A program made the translations under genes and the position numbers. Shown here piece after piece: positions 20,784 to 29,657 of a stretch of DNA of 32,439 bases; the stretch's first letter is position 1; every line of letters starts with the position of its first letter. Under the pieces are notes generated by a model. The model did not search any database and was not told the DNA's origin. It saw nothing but the letters and a program-made list of their open reading frames with translations. The DNA comes from Verrucomicrobiota bacterium (GTDB taxonomy: Bacteria; Verrucomicrobiota; Verrucomicrobiia; Palsa-1439), in contig VHCW01000052.1 of NCBI GenBank assembly GCA_016871575.1, positions 1-32,439 of the forward strand, written 5' to 3'.

Positions 20784-21647
20784 ATGAAAATCCTGCGCGC
20801 AACGCATCTCGGCTGGTGCTCCGGCGTCCGCAACGCCGTGGCGCTGGTCGCCAACGAAGCCCGGCGCGGTCGCGTCGCCGTGCTGGGCGAGTTGGTCCAC
20901 AATGAAACCGTCAATGCAGCCCTTCGCGCTGCCGGCGTCCAGTTGACCGGCAATCTCGACGCACTCAATGCCGACACCGTCATCGTGACGCCGCACGGCT
21001 TGTCGGACACGAAACTGGCGCGGGTGCGCGAGCGCGTCCCGCGCGTGCTCGACGCGACCTGTCCGCTTGTCCGCCGCGCGCACCGCGCGATGCGTGAACT
21101 GGTCGCTGCCGGGTTTCATCCGGTGGTGATCGGGCAACGCGGACACGTGGAAGTCCGTGGATTGACCGAAGACCTTGCCGAATTCGATGTCGTCCTGACG
21201 AAAGAAGACGTGCGCCTGTTGCCGCCCCGCTGGCGCTATGGCGTCATCGCGCAAACCACGCAGCCCGTCGAACGCGTTCAGCAATTGCTGGATGCCATTC
21301 GACGGCGGTTCGCCGAATCGGAGGTGCGGTTTGTGGACACCGTCTGCCGGCCGACAAAACTGCGGCGGGCCGCGGCCATTGCGTTGGCGCAACACTGCGA
21401 CGCGGTGGTGGTGATTGGCGGCGCGCGAAGCAACAACACCCGCGAGTTGGCGACGACGTGCGCACGGTGTTGCCGGCGCGTCTTCCGCGTCGAGAGCGCC
21501 GGCGAACTGAACGCGTCGTGGTTTGACGATGCGGAAACGATTGGCATCACGGCGGGCACTTCCACGCCGGATGAAGTAATTGAGGCGGTGGAACAATGGT
21601 TGTGGACGCTCGCGGAGGTGAAACATGAGATCCATCAAGCTGCGTAA
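20784..21647 (+). CDS. ispH: 4-hydroxy-3-methylbut-2-enyl diphosphate reductase-like protein
   Basis: 287 residues. IspH (LytB) is the iron-sulfur enzyme of the last step of the MEP isoprenoid pathway. The three cluster-binding cysteines are present: Cys12 in WCSGVRNAV, Cys93 in LDATCPLV, Cys188 in VDTVCRPT. Substrate residues are also there: His39 in LVHNE, His71 in TPHG, His121 and Glu123 in GHVEVRG, the QTT motif (157-159), SNNTREL and ITAGTSTPD near the end. It is shorter than E. coli IspH (316), and the sequence between motifs is divergent, so it may be a second, specialised copy. It overlaps the radical-SAM gene by 23 bases. Confidence 0.83.
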   Translation: MKILRATHLGWCSGVRNAVALVANEARRGRVAVLGELVHNETVNAALRAAGVQLTGNLDALNADTVIVTPHGLSDTKLARVRERVPRVLDATCPLVRRAHRAMRELVAAGFHPVVIGQRGHVEVRGLTEDLAEFDVVLTKEDVRLLPPRWRYGVIAQTTQPVERVQQLLDAIRRRFAESEVRFVDTVCRPTKLRRAAAIALAQHCDAVVVIGGARSNNTRELATTCARCCRRVFRVESAGELNASWFDDAETIGITAGTSTPDEVIEAVEQWLWTLAEVKHEIHQAA

Positions 21648-23148
21648 ACAGATGTTTGAGGCGCCGCCGTTGCCGGCGACGCGAAGCGGTGCGGTGCAAG
21701 AGCGGCTCGCATTGCTGGTGAACCCATTCTATGCAAAGGACGTTCACACGAGCTTTGGAAAGCACGTGTTGACGCCGAGCGTGGCGCTCACCAGTGTCGC
21801 AGCAGCGACACCCAAGGAGTGGTCAGTGCGCTACTGGGACGAGAACTTGTTGCAAGGAACGCCGCCATGCGACCCGGTGCCGCAGGTGGTCGGGATCACC
21901 GTGCACCTGACATTTGCGCGGCGGGCGTTCGAGTTGGCGGACTGGTTTCGCCGGTGCGGCGCCGTGGTGGTGCTCGGCGGAATGCACGTAACGGCTTGTC
22001 CGGACGAGTGCGCGCCGCACGCCGACGCGATTGCGATCGGCAACGGCGTTGTGTTGTGGCCGCAGATTTTGCGCGATGTGGAGGCGGGCACGCTGGCGAA
22101 AGTGTACCGGGCAGACTACACGAACTCGTTTGCGGACGAACCGCCGCCACGACGCGATGTGCTGGACCGGGAAAGTTACCTGACAACGACGAGCCTGATC
22201 GCAACGCGCGGATGCCACAATCGTTGCCGGTTCTGTTACATGGCGACGCAGGGTGTGCGGATGCCGTTGCAAACGCGCGACCCGCAGGCAGTGGCGGCGG
22301 AGTTCGCGGCGGAAGGAAATCCGTACGGCGTGTTCATTGACAACAACCTCGGCTCGCAGCCGGAGTATTTGCGGGCGTTATGCCGGGCATTGCGGCCGCT
22401 GGAGAAAATCTGGAGCGCAGCCGTGAGCCTCGATGTGGCGGACGATCCGTCGGTCGTCCGCGAAATGGCGCTGGCAGGTTGTACGGGCGTATTCGTCGGA
22501 TTTGAAACGCTGAACGACCAGAATCTCGCGGACGCGCGAAAGAAAACGCCACGCTGCGCAGACTATGCGCGGCGGGTGCGGTTGTTTCACGATAATGGCA
22601 TTCAAGTGAACGGCAGCTTTGTATTCGGATTCGACGGCGACGGTTCGGATTGTTTTGCGCGGACGTGCGAGTGGATTGAGGCGCAACGGTTGGAGTGCGC
22701 GACATTTCACATCCTGACGCCGTATCCTGGCACACCGTTATTCGCGCAGTTGGAGGTGGAAGGGCGCTTGTTGCATCGCAACTGGGAGTTGTACGACACG
22801 GGGCATGTGGTATTTCGCCCGAAACGAATGAACGCGGAGCAACTGGCGGAAGGTTATGCGTGGAGTTACCGGCGATTGTTTTCGCACGCATCGGTCTGGC
22901 GGCGGCGCCCGGAGGACTGGCACGCCGTCGCGCCGTATCTGGCGATGAGCTACCTGTACAAGCGGGCCAATTGGCTCTGGCCGGTGCTGATCCGCCAGCG
23001 ATGGACGGGCAGAGCGTGGCGTCCGCTCATCGAAGCGTCGTGTCGCCGGCATTTGCGGCTTCGCCGGCGATTGGCGGGAAGCAAAGTTTGGCTTGATTTG
23101 CCGTCAGAACCGGCGAGAATGCAGCGTGCGCAAGCGGGCGTAGCATAG
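21625..23148 (+). CDS. B12-binding-domain radical SAM protein
   Basis: 507 residues. The N-terminal ~40-160 is a cobalamin-binding-like Rossmann fold (VVGITVHLTFARRAFELADW, VVLGGMHVTACPDE, ADAIAIGNG). The radical SAM domain follows with CHNRCRFC (Cys197-x3-Cys201-x2-Cys204), then GVFIDNN, FVGFETLND and HILTPYPGTPLF. The ~110-residue C-terminal part resembles the DUF4070 region of this family, which includes methylases such as hopanoid methylases and many uncharacterised members. The reaction here is unknown. It has a strong ribosome site, GGAGGTG four bases before the ATG, inside ispH. The last five codons and the TAG stop coincide with the 5' end of the tRNA gene. Confidence 0.85.
   Translation: MRSIKLRKQMFEAPPLPATRSGAVQERLALLVNPFYAKDVHTSFGKHVLTPSVALTSVAAATPKEWSVRYWDENLLQGTPPCDPVPQVVGITVHLTFARRAFELADWFRRCGAVVVLGGMHVTACPDECAPHADAIAIGNGVVLWPQILRDVEAGTLAKVYRADYTNSFADEPPPRRDVLDRESYLTTTSLIATRGCHNRCRFCYMATQGVRMPLQTRDPQAVAAEFAAEGNPYGVFIDNNLGSQPEYLRALCRALRPLEKIWSAAVSLDVADDPSVVREMALAGCTGVFVGFETLNDQNLADARKKTPRCADYARRVRLFHDNGIQVNGSFVFGFDGDGSDCFARTCEWIEAQRLECATFHILTPYPGTPLFAQLEVEGRLLHRNWELYDTGHVVFRPKRMNAEQLAEGYAWSYRRLFSHASVWRRRPEDWHAVAPYLAMSYLYKRANWLWPVLIRQRWTGRAWRPLIEASCRRHLRLRRRLAGSKVWLDLPSEPARMQRAQAGVA
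23093..23120 (+). promoter_or_regulatory. Candidate tRNA promoter inside the radical-SAM gene
   Basis: TTGATT (23093-23098), 16 bp, GAGAAT (23115-23120), 13 bases before the tRNA 5' end. It would give the tRNA its own promoter within coding sequence. Confidence 0.35.
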
Positions 23149-23215: not shown

Positions 23216-23644
23216 TCAGTTGCGAACGCTGACGGCCAGCACAATCCAGTCGTTGCCCACTTCCGGTCCTTTCACGAGAAGATGGCCGTTTTCAACGATC
23301 TCGACCACGCTCCTCAGCAACAGTGTCTTGCCGGAGTACCATTCAAATTCCAATTTCTGCTGGCGTTTGCCGGATGACTTGGGGGTAACGAAGAGGGAAA
23401 AGTTTTCGCCGAGATCAAGCCGCAGTTTTGCGCCAGCCTTCAGCGGCTGCCGCTGCGCGCCAAGCTGCTGGTAAAACTGGTAGCCAAACTTTTCCTTCAG
23501 CTTGGCGTGAATGTCCGCAAGCGCCGCGTCGGATTTCCCGATTTCATTGGAGGCGCGGATGAGCCGGGCTTCCACGCTCGTTGCCTGCGCTGTCCCTGCG
23601 AACAGAAGCGACAACACCAGTGTCGCGATCCAGCGCATGATCAC
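23216..23644 (-). CDS. Secreted protein of unknown function in the sigma-factor operon
   Basis: 142 residues with a signal peptide (MRWIATLVLSLLFAGTAQA), preceded by two extra residues if the GTG at 23644 is used; ATG at 23638 is the alternative. The mature part is an N-terminal helix (VEARLIRASNEIGKSDAALADIHAKLKEKF) and a beta-rich half (LRLDLGENFSLFVTP, KLEFEWYSGKTLLLRSVVEIVENGHLLVKGP). I do not recognise a family. The GTG overlaps the anti-sigma stop (GTGA), so it is the last gene of the rtcB-sigma-anti-sigma operon; it may be a periplasmic partner of the anti-sigma factor. Confidence 0.7.
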   Translation of the reverse strand: MIMRWIATLVLSLLFAGTAQATSVEARLIRASNEIGKSDAALADIHAKLKEKFGYQFYQQLGAQRQPLKAGAKLRLDLGENFSLFVTPKSSGKRQQKLEFEWYSGKTLLLRSVVEIVENGHLLVKGPEVGNDWIVLAVSVRN

Positions 23645-24180
23645 GTCTCGCTGTTCTCAAAGCGCTGTTTCATCTCATCGAGATCGGCTGTCCATTCGAG
23701 GCCGGACACCCAGATCACCGCGACGTCGGACTCGGCGCCTTTCAAGGGCGTGGCGACCGTGTTCGGAATGACGGTATCTACGCGTTCCACCAGCACGGTG
23801 CCGGGACCGGCGGAATGCGGTTGCTGGAGCATCACGCCGGTGAGCAGCGCGACCATCAGGCCGGAGGTGGCGGTTGCCAAGGCGCCGCGGTGCACCAGCA
23901 GCCAGTCGGCCAAGGACAGGCGCGGGACGGGAATGAACACGGTCTGCGGTTCGCGCGTGGTGATGTCGCGCTTCACTTTCGACCAGAAAAAATCAGCCGA
24001 ATCGCTCATCTCGATGATGGGCGGACACGCGGCAAGCGTTTGGCGCACGCGTTCGACCCGTTGGAGTTCAGCGGCGCATTGCGGGCAATGCCGCACGTGC
24101 CGTTGGGCGAGCCACCGGGACAATCCTTTCAGTTCGCCGTCGGCCAGCGCGCTGAGTCGTTCTGTGTTGTGCTGTTTCAT
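23641..24180 (-). CDS. Zinc-finger anti-sigma factor
   Basis: 179 residues. The N-terminal domain has the ZAS motif His28-x3-Cys32-x2-Cys35 in RHVRHCPQCAAEL, found in cytoplasmic domains of anti-sigma factors that hold ECF sigma factors. One membrane helix follows (~100-120, around LATATSGLMVALLTGVML), then a periplasmic tail of ~55 residues with the sequence VIWVSGLEW, conserved-looking for this family. Start is ATG 24180, overlapping the sigma stop by four bases; an upstream in-frame start at 24255 lies within the sigma gene and is not used. Confidence 0.85.
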   Translation of the reverse strand: MKQHNTERLSALADGELKGLSRWLAQRHVRHCPQCAAELQRVERVRQTLAACPPIIEMSDSADFFWSKVKRDITTREPQTVFIPVPRLSLADWLLVHRGALATATSGLMVALLTGVMLQQPHSAGPGTVLVERVDTVIPNTVATPLKGAESDVAVIWVSGLEWTADLDEMKQRFENSET

Positions 24181-24821
24181 AAAACCTTTTGTAATAATTT
24201 CTGCAAATGTTTGCGGGCGTAGTGAAGCCTCGACATCACCGTGCCCATCGAGCATCCGACCGCTTTGGCGATCGCCGCGTAATCCAACCCGTCAAACTCC
24301 CGGAGCTGGACCACAAGGCGATGTTCGGGCGAGAGCTTTTCGAGCGCCGCCTCGATAAATTCGCGCAATTCCCGCCGACGGACCTCATCGGTCGGCAACG
24401 GCTGGTTCGAGGGCGGGATCTCGACGTCGGCATCGGCGTCGGGATCCATGGCTTCCTCGAACTCCACCGTCGGCCGGCGGTCGCGCCGGCGGACGTGGTC
24501 AATGCACAGGTTGGTGGTGATGCGGTACAGCCACGTGTAAAACGAGGCGTTCTTCTTGAACCCGCGTATCGCCTGCCAACCCTTGACAAATGTTTCCTGA
24601 GAAAGATCTGTTGCGTCCTGTTCGTTCCTCACCATGCCGAGTGCCAGGGCATACACGCGGTGTCGGTATCGGTTGACGAGCTCGCCATAGGCTTCCATTC
24701 GCCCCCGCTGGCATCGCTCGACCAGCTCCCGATCACTCAACTCGGTGAGAACTTCTCGGTTCGCTTGCTTCGACGCTGCGTTCCCTTGATTATTCAACAC
24801 CGCTGTTTGTCGCGCGCGCAT
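24177..24821 (-). CDS. ECF RNA polymerase sigma factor
   Basis: 214 residues. Region 2 has the usual DLSQETFVKGWQ and FYTWLYRITTNLCIDHVRRR (promoter melting and -10 recognition), region 4 has LSPEHRLVVQLREFDGLDYAAIAKAVGCSMGTVMSRLHYAR (helix-turn-helix for the -35 box). The acidic linker (DPDADADVEIPP) separates the two, and the ~24-residue N-terminus is an extension. It probably activates an envelope or stress regulon when released by the anti-sigma factor encoded next. The ATG at 24821 overlaps the rtcB stop by one base (TGATG), so the frame extending back into rtcB is ruled out as the start. Confidence 0.92.
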   Translation of the reverse strand: MRARQTAVLNNQGNAASKQANREVLTELSDRELVERCQRGRMEAYGELVNRYRHRVYALALGMVRNEQDATDLSQETFVKGWQAIRGFKKNASFYTWLYRITTNLCIDHVRRRDRRPTVEFEEAMDPDADADVEIPPSNQPLPTDEVRRRELREFIEAALEKLSPEHRLVVQLREFDGLDYAAIAKAVGCSMGTVMSRLHYARKHLQKLLQKVL

Positions 24822-26254
24822 CAGCCTTTGATCACTCCGATGGGCCGCAGCCGCGCCACCTTGCGCGCGAGACCGGCTTGATGACAAACTTCCACCACTT
24901 CCGAAACGTCCTTGTACGCCCACGGAGCTTCTTCCAACGCGGTTCCTTTGCCGTGCGCCATCATGACAACACCGGCCTCGTCCATCGCGCGCCGCAGGTC
25001 CGCCATCGAGCCGTGCCGCGCCGCTGCCGCCCGGCTCATCGTCCGTCCCGCGCCGTGGCACACGGTTCCGAACGTCTGTTCCATCGCCGTCTCGGTGCCG
25101 GCCAGCACAAACGAACAGCGGCCCATGTCGCCGGGCACCAGCACGGGCTGGCCGATCGCGCGATAGCGCGCCGGCAATGACTCGTGCCCCGGCGGAAACG
25201 CGCGCGTCGCGCCCTTGCGGTGCACGCACAATGTCTTGCCGCCGTGTTCCTCCATCTTCGCGATGTTGTGCGGCACGTCGAACACCAGTTCCATTTCCAG
25301 CGCGCGCGGCGAAATCCGCAGCGCGTGTTGAAACGCGCGCGCGGTCTTCACCATCAATACCTGACGGTTGGCGAACGCGTAATTCGCCGCGCATCGCATC
25401 GCCGCCAGATAGTCCTGTCCTTCCGCCGACTCCACCGGCGCGCAAACCAACTGCCGGTCCGGCAAACTGATCCCGTACTTCTGGGGCGCGCTCCGCATGG
25501 TCTTCAGGTAATCGTCGCACACCTGATAGCCGAACCCGCGCGAGCCGCAATGGATCATCGCCGTCACCTGTCCCATGGACAACCCCATCACCTCCGCTGC
25601 GCGCTCGTCGAAGATTTCGTCCACCACCTGCACTTCCAAAAAATGATTTCCGCTGCCCAATGACCCGAGTTGTCCCGCGCCGCGCTCCAGCGCGCGGTTG
25701 GTGATCCCCAACGGCTCCGCGCCTTGCAGGCAACCTCGTTCCTCGATAAAGTCGAGGTCATCCGGTTTTCCGAATCCACGGTTCACCGCCCACGCCGCGC
25801 CCTGGCGGACGCACGCCTTCTCGTCGGCGTGCGACAAATCGAGATCGCTTCCCTCGCCCAATCCGCAGGGCACATCGCGGAACAGTTGCGCGACCAGTTC
25901 CTTGATGCGCGGCGACACCTCGGCCTGTTGCAGTCCCGTCCGCATCAGGCGCACGCCGCAATTGATGTCGTAGCCGACGCCGCCCGGCGAGATCACACCG
26001 CCTTCTTCCGGGTCCGTCGCGGCGCAGCCGCCGATGGGAAAGCCGTAGCCCCAATGAATGTCCGGCATCGCCAGCGAAAACTTCTGTATGCCCGGCAACG
26101 TGGCGACATTCGCCACTTGTTCCAGCGCGTTCTCATCCAGCGCCTGTCGCAGCATCGTTTCCGAGGCATAGACGCGGCCCGGCACCCGCATCCCGCTCTT
26201 GTGCGAGACCGGCAGCTCCCAGAGCCAATCGTTGATTTTGTGCAACTCGCTCAC
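24821..26254 (-). CDS. rtcB: RNA-splicing ligase RtcB
   Basis: 477 residues from GTG 26254. RtcB joins RNA ends with 2',3'-cyclic phosphate and 5'-OH, using GTP and Mn, in tRNA splicing or RNA repair. Metal-site residues are Asp96 and Cys99 in GYDINCGVR, the His in LGSGNHFLEV, and the His in MIHCGSRGFG; the guanylylated His is expected in the HGAGRTMSR region. Length and MPDIHWGYGFPIGG near the start fit the family. The RtcA cyclase and archease genes are not here. It is the first gene of an operon with an ECF sigma factor and its anti-sigma factor, and its promoter is leaderless. Confidence 0.95.
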   Translation of the reverse strand: MSELHKINDWLWELPVSHKSGMRVPGRVYASETMLRQALDENALEQVANVATLPGIQKFSLAMPDIHWGYGFPIGGCAATDPEEGGVISPGGVGYDINCGVRLMRTGLQQAEVSPRIKELVAQLFRDVPCGLGEGSDLDLSHADEKACVRQGAAWAVNRGFGKPDDLDFIEERGCLQGAEPLGITNRALERGAGQLGSLGSGNHFLEVQVVDEIFDERAAEVMGLSMGQVTAMIHCGSRGFGYQVCDDYLKTMRSAPQKYGISLPDRQLVCAPVESAEGQDYLAAMRCAANYAFANRQVLMVKTARAFQHALRISPRALEMELVFDVPHNIAKMEEHGGKTLCVHRKGATRAFPPGHESLPARYRAIGQPVLVPGDMGRCSFVLAGTETAMEQTFGTVCHGAGRTMSRAAAARHGSMADLRRAMDEAGVVMMAHGKGTALEEAPWAYKDVSEVVEVCHQAGLARKVARLRPIGVIKG

Positions 26255-26260
26255 ATCGGC

Positions 26261-26289
26261 AGTTTACCCGGTGGCCGCATGGCATTCAA
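26261..26289 (-). promoter_or_regulatory. Promoter of the rtcB operon (leaderless)
   Basis: On the minus strand: TTGAAT (26284-26289), 17 bp, TAAACT (26261-26266), six bases before the GTG at 26254. Both boxes are four of six or better. It is a housekeeping-type promoter, not an obvious ECF one. Confidence 0.65.
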
Positions 26290-26378: not shown

Positions 26379-29300
26379 ATGAAGATCAAGTTGTCTCTCT
26401 TTGTTGTCGTGTTGGGATTCTGGTGCGTCGCGTGGACGGAGGCTGAGGACTGGCCGATGTGGCGGCACGACAACGGGCACACGGCGGCTTCATCGCTCGA
26501 ACTTCCCAACTCGCTCCGCCTCCAATGGAAACGTGAATTGCCTCCACCGGCGCCGACGTTTCCGGGTGATCTTCGCTTGTGCTTCGACAGGTCTTACGAG
26601 CCGGTGGTGTCGGGGAAACGATTGTTCCTGCCCTCGATGGTCACCGATAGTGTCACGGCGCTCGACACCGACACGGGACAGGAATTGTGGCGCGTCTTCG
26701 CCGATGGACCGGTGCGGTTTGCACCGGTGGCGTGGGAGAACAAAGTTTATTTTGTCTCCGATGACGGATTTCTGTATTGCGTGAGCGCCGATGACGGACG
26801 GTTGCTCTGGAAGTTCTCGCCAATGGAACCGGAACGGCAAGCGTACAAACTTCTCGGCGACGAGCGGCTGATTTCGCGTTGGCCGGCGCGCGGCGGGCCG
26901 GTGCTCGCGGACGGAACGGTCTATTTCGCCGCCGGCATCTGGCAGTTTGAAGGCGTCGCGGTCTGCGCGGTGGACGCCAACACGGGCAAAGCGCGCTGGG
27001 TGAACAAGGAATGCGCCTTCGTGAAGGACGGCCTCGTGGATCACGGCGCGCGGTTTGATGGCGGCGTGTCGCCGCAAGGTTATCTCACCGTGCTCGGCTC
27101 GAAACTGATCGTGCCCTGTGGACGGGCGTTGCCGGCGTTTTTTGATCGCGCCACGGGACGGATGGAGCCGTACACGACCGGCTGGGGCGGTCGCATCGCG
27201 CTGGCCAAGGGAAACTGGTACGCGTCCGTTGCCGGCGACTGGCTGTTTCAAGCCGGCGATCTCTACCGAATCCGCTCGGACATCACGCCGCCGAAACCGT
27301 CCGATTACATGCCACTGAAAGAGTTCGCCCGACAGATGAAAGTGTCGGACGAAACGATGGAGGATTGGATCAAGCAGTTCAAACTCGAAGTCGTCACGCG
27401 CGACGGCGAACGCTGGCTGCGCGTCCGCAACAGCGACGATGCCACGTACCTCACGTGGAACACCCAGCGAAAGAGCCTGCCAGACCGACCCGGCGAGCAA
27501 CACACGCTGGAGACGCGCACGCGCTTGCAGATTGACCCGACCAACGCGAAGGAACTCGGCGTCTTCCGCGAGCCGGTCCTGACTCCCGGCGCGATGTATT
27601 ATTCGGTCGCCACCAGCGACAGCATCCGTTCCATCCGCAACAGCAACGCAGACCGCGTGCAGCCGAAGGTGTTCACCTACACCGAAATTGTTGCGTGTGA
27701 CCTGACCAGTCAACCGGAATGGCAGACTTCATTTCTCGGCGGCTATGGCTGGAGCCGGGCGACGTTCATGCAGCTCTGGAGCCTGCCATCAACGCTGAAG
27801 GTCCACATCAAGGCCGGGTCGCGCCTCTACGCCGGCGGCCCGAAGACAGTCGCGGCAGTGGACACCGAGTCGGGAAAGATCTCCTGGCAAACCTCCATCG
27901 TCGGCACGCCGAACCGGATGCTCACCGCCGACGGCAAACTGTTTGTCGTCACCGTCGAGGGAACACTCTACTGCTTCGGCGCAGAGAGACGTTCACCGAA
28001 AACTTACGCCGTCGAAGCGTCATCCATGTCGCGCGACCGCTGGACAGCGCGCGCCGCGGAAATCCTCCGAAAGACCGGTGTGCGCGATGGCTACTGCGTT
28101 GTGTTGGGCGTTGGAAGCCGGCGATTGATCGAAGAACTCGCGCGCCAATCCGCGCTGCGGATGATCGTCCTCGAACCCGACACCGCCAAGGTCGCGTCGG
28201 CCCGGCGCGAGTTCTTCAAGCTTGGCCTGTACGGGATGCGCATTCACGTGGTGCAAGGTGATCTCGCCACGTTGCGACTGGCGCCGTACTTGGCGAGCCT
28301 CGTCATCTCCGAAGAACCGGCAACCGATAACCGGTATTCCGAACTGTTGCGACCGCACGGAGGAGTGGCCTATTTCGGATCGGTCGTCGAGCGACGGGAC
28401 GCGTTGCCCGACAGCGCAGACTGGTCGCACGCGAGCGGTGACGCCGCGCACACGTTTGCCTCGCAGGACCGGCGAATTGTTGCGCCGTTGGGTGTGCTCT
28501 GGTTTGGCGGTGGACTTGATCGGACGGTGCCGTGGATTGAAGGCGGCCCGCCCAAACTGCCCAGCGAAGCAGAACCTTCACCCTACGACGGAGCAGGGCC
28601 GACGCCCCGCGTGGCCGGCGGACGAATGTTCGTGCAAGTGGGCGATAACCTGTATGCCTCCGACATCTACACCGGCCGGCATCTGTGGACGAAAACCTTG
28701 AAGGCGCTCGACAGTGTTACCGCAACCGAAGACAGCATCTATACTGTTGTCGGGAAAAACTGTCTCCGGCTCGATGCCGCCACTGGCAAACAACAGGCCG
28801 CGTTCCGCAGCCCGTCGGGCGCCGACTGGCGCGAGATTCGTGTTCGCGGCGACCTGCTGATTGGCACGACCGGCAAATGGCTGGTCGGCATGGACCGGCG
28901 CACCGGCGAGACGCGCTGGAAACAAGAATCGCAGCGCGACGAATTCGGTTTCGCTATTGGGGCTGACCGGGTGTTCTGCGTGGACTACTGGCAACTGGCG
29001 CATCGGCGCCAGGATGACCCGAAGACGGAGGAAGCGGAGATCATTGCGTTGAAACTCGCCACCGGCGAGTTGCTCTGGCGAACCCCAACCACCGCGACGG
29101 CAACCGACCTGCCAAAACCAAGAAGTTTCGACCCACCGCTGAAACCGCAACTGGGATTTTCCGAACCGGCGGATGTGTTGCTGTTCACGCGCAACCAGGC
29201 CACCGCCGCGGCGCATCGCGGCGCCAGCGGCCAGTTGCTCTGGGCCAAGGACTGGCCGTGCAAAGAGCCGCGGACATTCACCAGCCATCATCCGCCGATT

Positions 29301-29657
29301 ATTTTGGCGGACCGCTTCATCACGCATCAAGGTTTTGTGGTGGATTTACAGACCGGCGAATCGGTTTCGACGCGGCTGTGGCAAAAACGGCGCGGTTGTC
29401 CCCGCGCGCTGGCGTGTGCCTACACGGTTTTCGTGCGGGATGCGTTTGTCTCGTATATTGACATGGCCAGCGGCGCGCAGACGTTTCTGCGCGGCATTCG
29501 TTCCGGTTGCACCGCCAGCCACATTCCCGCCGGCGGCATCGTCGTTGCCCCGCACTATTCGCGCCACTGCAACTGCAATTACCCGCTCAGTTTCTCGTCG
29601 GCGTTCGTGACGATGCCGGAAGTGGCGTCGTGGGACCTTGCTCGCGCGCAGAAGTAG
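26379..29657 (+). CDS. Secreted PQQ-type beta-propeller protein with embedded methyltransferase-like domain
   Basis: 1092 residues; signal peptide MKIKLSLFVVVLGFWCVAWTEA. The mature N-terminus DWPMWRHDNGHTAASS is typical of BamB/PQQ-like propeller proteins. Repeats such as VTALDTDTGQELWR, VYFVSDDGFLYCVSADDGRLLWK, VAAVDTESGKISWQT and LVGMDRRTGETRWK form propeller blades on both sides of an insert. The insert (~549-670) resembles a class I SAM methyltransferase: RAAEILRKTGVRDGYCVVLGVGSR, IVLEPD at the end of strand 2, MRIHVVQGD. The C-terminus has GCTASHIPAG and CNCNYPLS, cysteines common to this large family in Planctomycetes and Verrucomicrobia. No dehydrogenase active site is recognised. Function and ligand are unknown; start at ATG 26379 is fixed by promoter and signal peptide. 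Confidence 0.85.
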   Translation: MKIKLSLFVVVLGFWCVAWTEAEDWPMWRHDNGHTAASSLELPNSLRLQWKRELPPPAPTFPGDLRLCFDRSYEPVVSGKRLFLPSMVTDSVTALDTDTGQELWRVFADGPVRFAPVAWENKVYFVSDDGFLYCVSADDGRLLWKFSPMEPERQAYKLLGDERLISRWPARGGPVLADGTVYFAAGIWQFEGVAVCAVDANTGKARWVNKECAFVKDGLVDHGARFDGGVSPQGYLTVLGSKLIVPCGRALPAFFDRATGRMEPYTTGWGGRIALAKGNWYASVAGDWLFQAGDLYRIRSDITPPKPSDYMPLKEFARQMKVSDETMEDWIKQFKLEVVTRDGERWLRVRNSDDATYLTWNTQRKSLPDRPGEQHTLETRTRLQIDPTNAKELGVFREPVLTPGAMYYSVATSDSIRSIRNSNADRVQPKVFTYTEIVACDLTSQPEWQTSFLGGYGWSRATFMQLWSLPSTLKVHIKAGSRLYAGGPKTVAAVDTESGKISWQTSIVGTPNRMLTADGKLFVVTVEGTLYCFGAERRSPKTYAVEASSMSRDRWTARAAEILRKTGVRDGYCVVLGVGSRRLIEELARQSALRMIVLEPDTAKVASARREFFKLGLYGMRIHVVQGDLATLRLAPYLASLVISEEPATDNRYSELLRPHGGVAYFGSVVERRDALPDSADWSHASGDAAHTFASQDRRIVAPLGVLWFGGGLDRTVPWIEGGPPKLPSEAEPSPYDGAGPTPRVAGGRMFVQVGDNLYASDIYTGRHLWTKTLKALDSVTATEDSIYTVVGKNCLRLDAATGKQQAAFRSPSGADWREIRVRGDLLIGTTGKWLVGMDRRTGETRWKQESQRDEFGFAIGADRVFCVDYWQLAHRRQDDPKTEEAEIIALKLATGELLWRTPTTATATDLPKPRSFDPPLKPQLGFSEPADVLLFTRNQATAAAHRGASGQLLWAKDWPCKEPRTFTSHHPPIILADRFITHQGFVVDLQTGESVSTRLWQKRRGCPRALACAYTVFVRDAFVSYIDMASGAQTFLRGIRSGCTASHIPAGGIVVAPHYSRHCNCNYPLSFSSAFVTMPEVASWDLARAQK

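Follow-up and report, generated by a model that had tools for sequence, protein, structure and literature searches.

Does the placement of an RNA ligase gene in one operon with an envelope-type stress sigma factor and its anti-sigma factor mean that RNA repair and envelope stress defence are made as one response? The question arises from a head-to-tail run of four minus-strand genes in the 32,439-nt stretch of Verrucomicrobiota DNA that was analysed here as a whole (the window): rtcB (24821-26254; 477 aa, GTG start; Pfam RtcB, E 7e-171), an ECF sigma factor gene (24177-24821; 214 aa; sigma-70 regions 2 and 4, E 3e-21 and 5e-14), an anti-sigma factor gene (23641-24180; 179 aa; Pfam zf-HC2, E 1.4e-5) and a gene encoding a small secreted protein (23216-23638; 140 aa; no Pfam match). 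The tight packing of these genes, put forward in a first-pass annotation of the locus, is borne out by their coordinates. Of the overlaps of one to four bases that it described, those at two junctions stand, with one base common to rtcB and the sigma gene (TGATG) and four common to the sigma and anti-sigma genes (ATGA), and the third exists only if the secreted-protein gene starts at an overlapping GTG rather than at the ATG 2 nt past the anti-sigma stop. A terminator scan of the region gave 4 sites versus 4.1 expected, none of them at the rtcB/sigma junction. Past the end of the cassette a tRNA-Gly(CCC) gene lies on the opposite strand, and at 20784-23148 (plus strand) ispH and a B12-binding-like radical SAM gene overlap by 23 nt. 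Divergent from rtcB, 26379-29657 (plus strand) encodes a large PQQ beta-propeller protein with, by eye, a methyltransferase-like middle part; the gap of ~120 nt between this gene and rtcB contains the putative rtcB promoter.

Judging by its sequence, the rtcB product belongs to the full-length (archaeal/Thermus-like) 3'-5' RNA ligases. Its RtcB domain spans the whole length of the protein (profile positions 1-426 of 426, Pfam), residues 4-477 align with Pyrococcus PH1602 (1uc2) at E 2.5e-161, including the segments DINCGVR, GSGNHFLEVQ and VHRKGATRAFPPGH, and it is the single RtcB match in the window's genome. The sigma protein of 214 aa contains Sigma70_r2 and Sigma70_r4_2 only (Pfam), as in ECF (group IV sigma70) factors, and its best solved matches are ECF chains of the sigma-H/AlgU type (RpoE/AlgU-type, E 3e-34); homology to these chains starts at about residue 24-25, and the annotated ATG overlaps the rtcB stop. 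The anti-sigma factor carries an N-terminal H-x3-C-x2-C (zf-HC2 above cut-off) that is kept in an alignment of 10 orthologues, as in class I zinc-type anti-sigma factors, followed by a hydrophobic stretch at about residues 97-118 (by eye) and a conserved C-terminal V-I-W-V-x-G-L, and it matches the RseA model weakly, under the cut-off. The small secreted protein (alignment A1, 10 orthologues) begins with a signal-peptide-like N-terminus (by eye), and its AlphaFold model (pLDDT 87, eight strands) is that of a predicted beta-sandwich. A structure comparison returned no PDB match with E <= 0.001, and searches with this protein and 9 orthologues returned neither a Pfam match nor a match to the RseB/MucB family.

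The survey of rtcB neighbourhoods that the first-pass annotation had proposed covered the order, close relatives and 384 genomes of the class, and the sigma/anti-sigma pair behind rtcB proved to be kept. We find the four-gene order in 10 genomes of the families f1 and f4, related groups of uncultured Verrucomicrobia-type bacteria from two small orders within a single class, and this rules out a linkage unique to the window's genome. Among the 11 f1 genomes, 6 carry a full-length rtcB, with the cassette behind it in 4 and without it in 2 (G004, G008). The full order is present in 6 of the 7 f4 genomes, and in the seventh, G044, an rtcB fragment lies at one contig end and the anti-sigma, secreted-protein and yqeY genes open another contig. 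Elsewhere in the class, the 1.5-kb flanks of 18 other full-length rtcB loci contained a sigma gene in 0/18 cases, and a wider RtcB protein scan of 80 loci found one behind rtcB only in L031, which is the G001 contig; flanks are limited in both sets, and because they vary in the 80-locus scan and some of its loci end soon after rtcB, absence of the cassette is not certain for each locus. When the trees are compared, the f1 and f4 RtcB proteins fall into a single clade of 12 (support 1.0); on the sigma side, the linked genes cluster together with two unlinked ones of f1, with those of f4 as sister. The simplest reading of these trees is that rtcB and the cassette would have been joined once. A single origin in both trees is what neutral synteny would leave behind, in which genes once joined were never parted and read-through has no importance. 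It weighs against functional coupling, in which RNA-repair demand and the envelope response would rise and fall together on one transcript, with translational coupling through the overlap of rtcB and the sigma gene.

The surroundings of the linked genes bear on the same two possibilities. The window's flanking genes (PQQ protein, radical SAM, ispH) are absent around the other nine linked loci, and since the order itself recurs in 10 genomes, the arrangement goes beyond chance. The rtcB-cassette block thus outlasts its surroundings, the window's other neighbours being kept in 0/9 of the other linked loci, which counts against neutral synteny, with the qualifier that overlapping genes are hard to part undamaged and that this is itself able to keep them together. 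An order retained in two families with changed flanks argues for coupling, as does the stop-start overlap of rtcB and sigma (TRATG) in 4/4 linked f1 loci with no terminator visible. The f4 junction is a short spacer, for example of 7 nt (L131) or ~40 nt (L132).

When the search was centred on the cassette, the secreted-protein family was found in 113/384 genomes of the class, with one match per genome. At 40 further cassette loci (L170-L209), of which 39 come from other genomes and one is the split locus of G044, cut by a contig end and possibly linked, rtcB was found in 0/40 and a sigma gene matching the same profile in 36/40. On this distribution of sequences, the cassette predates its link to rtcB and is more widespread. 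Inside f1, G005 and G006 have the cassette without a full-length rtcB, and G004 and G008 have rtcB without the cassette, the secreted family being missing genome-wide. The coupling of RNA repair with envelope stress suggested by the first-pass annotation sits poorly with a cassette that usually occurs without rtcB and an rtcB that can occur without the cassette; separability in both directions inside f1 speaks against it, and several independent separations are in keeping with neutral synteny. In G004 and G008 YqeY comes directly after rtcB (L137, L138), and yqeY follows the secreted-protein gene in 7/10 linked loci (it was not found there in the window, L128 and L134) as well as in G006, G014 and G044. 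From the split loci and these YqeY positions, it therefore appears that an ancestral rtcB-sigma-anti-sigma-secreted-yqeY operon came apart both ways. YqeY marks where that operon ended; the window's genus lacks it and has the tRNA-Gly gene in that position. In another family, f9, the sigma gene usually stands behind a conserved helical protein (~220 aa, no Pfam match), often with rlmN before it (L177:2608-4510, L182:4096-4815), and a cassette with such upstream neighbours is a further point against coupling.

We then turn to the promoters. Upstream of rtcB lies a putative leaderless sigma70-type promoter (26261-26289, minus strand), composed of TTGAAT (26289-26284), 17 nt and TAAACT (26266-26261), with this -10 element 6 nt 5' of the GTG start. 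The leaderless promoter claimed earlier is thereby upheld as a sigma70-type pattern: TTGNNN-N16/17-TANNNT, with its end 6-9 nt 5' of the rtcB start codon, is present in 13/13 f1/f4 loci, including those of the cassette-less G004 and G008, versus a chance rate of 21/7997 ATG/GTG positions in the same loci, the pattern having been fixed after inspection of these same 13 loci; a slightly looser test was passed by 3/97 other rtcB genes. The contrast with the RtcR control of E. coli also holds, as an RtcR gene was detected in 0/17 f1/f4 genomes searched, with a positive E. coli control; another control of rtcB is therefore conceivable, which is a point for coupling.

A different motif marks the sigma gene, where a putative autoregulatory ECF promoter, TGAAT-N16-CGTCGAA (24769-24796, minus strand), with CGTC at 24775-24772, lies inside the annotated sigma N-terminus. 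Within a search zone of up to 220 nt before the conserved protein start, TGAAT-N16/17-CGTC is found at the sigma gene in 40/46 loci of the class, among them 10/10 rtcB-linked ones, over a background of 57/6360 random 250-nt windows (0.9%), and a matrix search found it upstream of rtcB in 0/13 f1/f4 loci. Membership of rtcB in the sigma regulon via its own upstream region was rejected, the matrix from 40 sigma-gene sites giving nothing above background at 13/13 rtcB genes, and TTGAAT in the rtcB promoter was weighed as an ECF -35 element, against which stand the -10 of TANNNT, not CGTC, and the absence of the full ECF motif. The distribution of the ECF-type motif (10/10 linked sigma genes, 0/13 rtcB genes) speaks against the proposal that RNA repair and the stress sigma factor form one response; two separate conserved promoter motif types argue against coupling, and a cassette with its own promoter motif is compatible with neutral synteny. 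The first-pass annotation would have counted its reading as overturned by a terminator together with a second, active promoter separating the sigma gene from rtcB: a separate putative promoter motif was found there, and no terminator was seen. Early hallmarks of ECF systems, in the available part of PMC8103513, are a co-encoded anti-sigma factor and an autoregulated promoter whose -35 and -10 elements hold AAC and CGT, respectively. Here the zf-HC2 protein is co-encoded with a 4-nt overlap with the sigma gene, and CGTC stands at the right spacing in 40/46 loci of a putative promoter whose -35 element is TGAAT, without the AAC core.

Because in 25/40 loci the motif shares an open reading frame with the sigma gene, inside the annotated N-terminus, part of its conservation there could be at the protein level (M/L/V-N-x6-A/P-S-K/N). 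Mere protein conservation is opposed by the 15/40 loci in which the motif is out of frame or non-coding relative to the sigma gene, by codon bias, the Asn codon of the motif being AAT in all 25 in-frame loci versus 39/109 elsewhere in the same genes (with the caveat that the motif search itself demands AAT), and by sites genome-wide; such conservation keeps some probability for f1/f4. In f9 the motif ends directly 5' of the sigma ATG.

Upon scanning the window's genome for TGAATN{16,17}CGTCNAA, we observe 7 sites versus 3 at the wrong spacing. The six sites outside the sigma gene precede genes for a DUF6600 protein, a DUF1501 protein, a 3-keto-disaccharide hydrolase, a Gfo/Idh-type protein, a glycosyl hydrolase/transferase and a small Gly/Tyr-rich exported-type protein, and most of these candidate targets have signal-peptide-like starts. 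Summed over the 10 linked genomes, there are 74 sites at the right and 29 at the wrong spacing, compared with 40 and 44 in nine other cassette genomes and 11 and 13 in six cassette-less genomes. A candidate sigma regulon is thus supported by motif counts for f1/f4 only, because the nine other cassette genomes show no enrichment. Among chosen sites, the motif is kept before orthologous genes, in two genomes (G003, G010) before the one for DUF6600 and in G001 before the glycosyl one. Targets were read across genomes at 20 chosen sites (shared, or from G013, G028 and G001) of 107 in cassette genomes, and since these were chosen, their secreted character is no unbiased count. A backwards-pattern control proved too lenient, because non-cassette genomes exceed it too, and was replaced by the wrong-spacing control.

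The operons RpoE-RseA-RseB and AlgU-MucA-MucB are envelope-stress operons in which genes for an ECF sigma factor, an anti-sigma factor and an exported protein stand together. The cassette is like them in its gene order, its predicted autoregulatory promoter and its secreted or envelope candidate targets (for RpoE, the available part of PMC8103513). Unlike in them, the exported protein is a predicted beta-sandwich of 140 aa without an RseB/MucB match, the anti-sigma factor is of the zf-HC2 kind and scores under the RseA cut-off, the -35 element is TGAAT and rtcB lies upstream. The description of an envelope-type sigma cassette stands, given a membrane-type anti-sigma factor and a secreted protein; the accompanying claim, that RNA repair is co-made with it as one response, does not. 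As in E. coli rtcBA under RtcR, in the portion of PMC7790460 available, rtcB is the first gene of its operon, whereas here the f1/f4 genomes searched have no RtcR, there is no adjoining rtcA and, in place of sigma-54 control, the putative promoter is leaderless and sigma70-type. In the accessible part of PMC3973293, RtcB-Archease operons likewise combine a full-length RtcB of the same type with a partner, which here is a signalling cassette and not archease. The literature searched on rtcB with ECF sigma factors, anti-sigma factors with RNA repair, and rtcB gene neighbourhoods, as far as its text was accessible, held no such link, and the cassette is absent from the titles and abstracts of that searched on Verrucomicrobia ECF systems. 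A class-wide, single-copy cassette of ECF sigma factor, anti-sigma factor and secreted, predicted beta-sandwich protein with its own motif is apparently undescribed in the literature searched.

Overall, the observation is confirmed and the first-pass reading partly supported, its proposed coupling mostly not: the parts are ordinary, and their conserved order is unusual. Most probably, what lies downstream of rtcB is an envelope-type ECF cassette of the ordinary, autoregulated kind, in a common operon in which each unit has its own promoter. Starting from the gene content, the conservation, both motifs and the loss pattern, we infer promoter activity, read-through, an envelope signal and a role of the secreted protein as follows. 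A housekeeping leaderless promoter would transcribe rtcB, and the transcript would run on into the sigma gene, there being no visible terminator, to give basal sigma and anti-sigma factor. On the model of RpoE-RseA, the sigma factor would stay bound to the anti-sigma factor at the membrane and be let go upon an envelope signal, perhaps sensed with the secreted protein. Once free, the sigma factor would activate the TGAAT-N16/17-CGTC promoter at the start of its own gene, upon which the cassette and a set of secreted-protein genes, in most linked relatives yqeY too, would rise and rtcB would stay flat. The join of rtcB and the cassette would have arisen once, before f1 and f4 split, and would later have parted both ways in some f1 genomes.

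Neutral synteny, with its single origin and repeated separations set against a block that outlives its neighbours, we consider unlikely. A real functional coupling, in which order, overlap and missing RtcR are answered by two promoter types and a linkage that dissolves either way, is about as unlikely. There is nevertheless room for a selected link, given how long the join has lasted and, in f1, the TRATG overlap. It is an improbable variant, confined to f1/f4, that the cassette is wired to RNA repair, with rtcB read-through and translational coupling setting the sigma and anti-sigma level; if so, cells with a high RNA-ligation demand would meet envelope stress already armed, and the sigma promoter would co-induce the translation-linked protein YqeY.

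Returning to the ordinary cassette with its own promoter, an attractive reading is corrected, in that RNA ligase and stress sigma factor stand side by side under different predicted promoters. What is gained, for a cassette present in 113/384 genomes of the class, is a defined promoter motif together with a list of candidate targets. The history of this cassette, joined to rtcB once and parted several times, can serve to test whether genes linked in an operon share a function.
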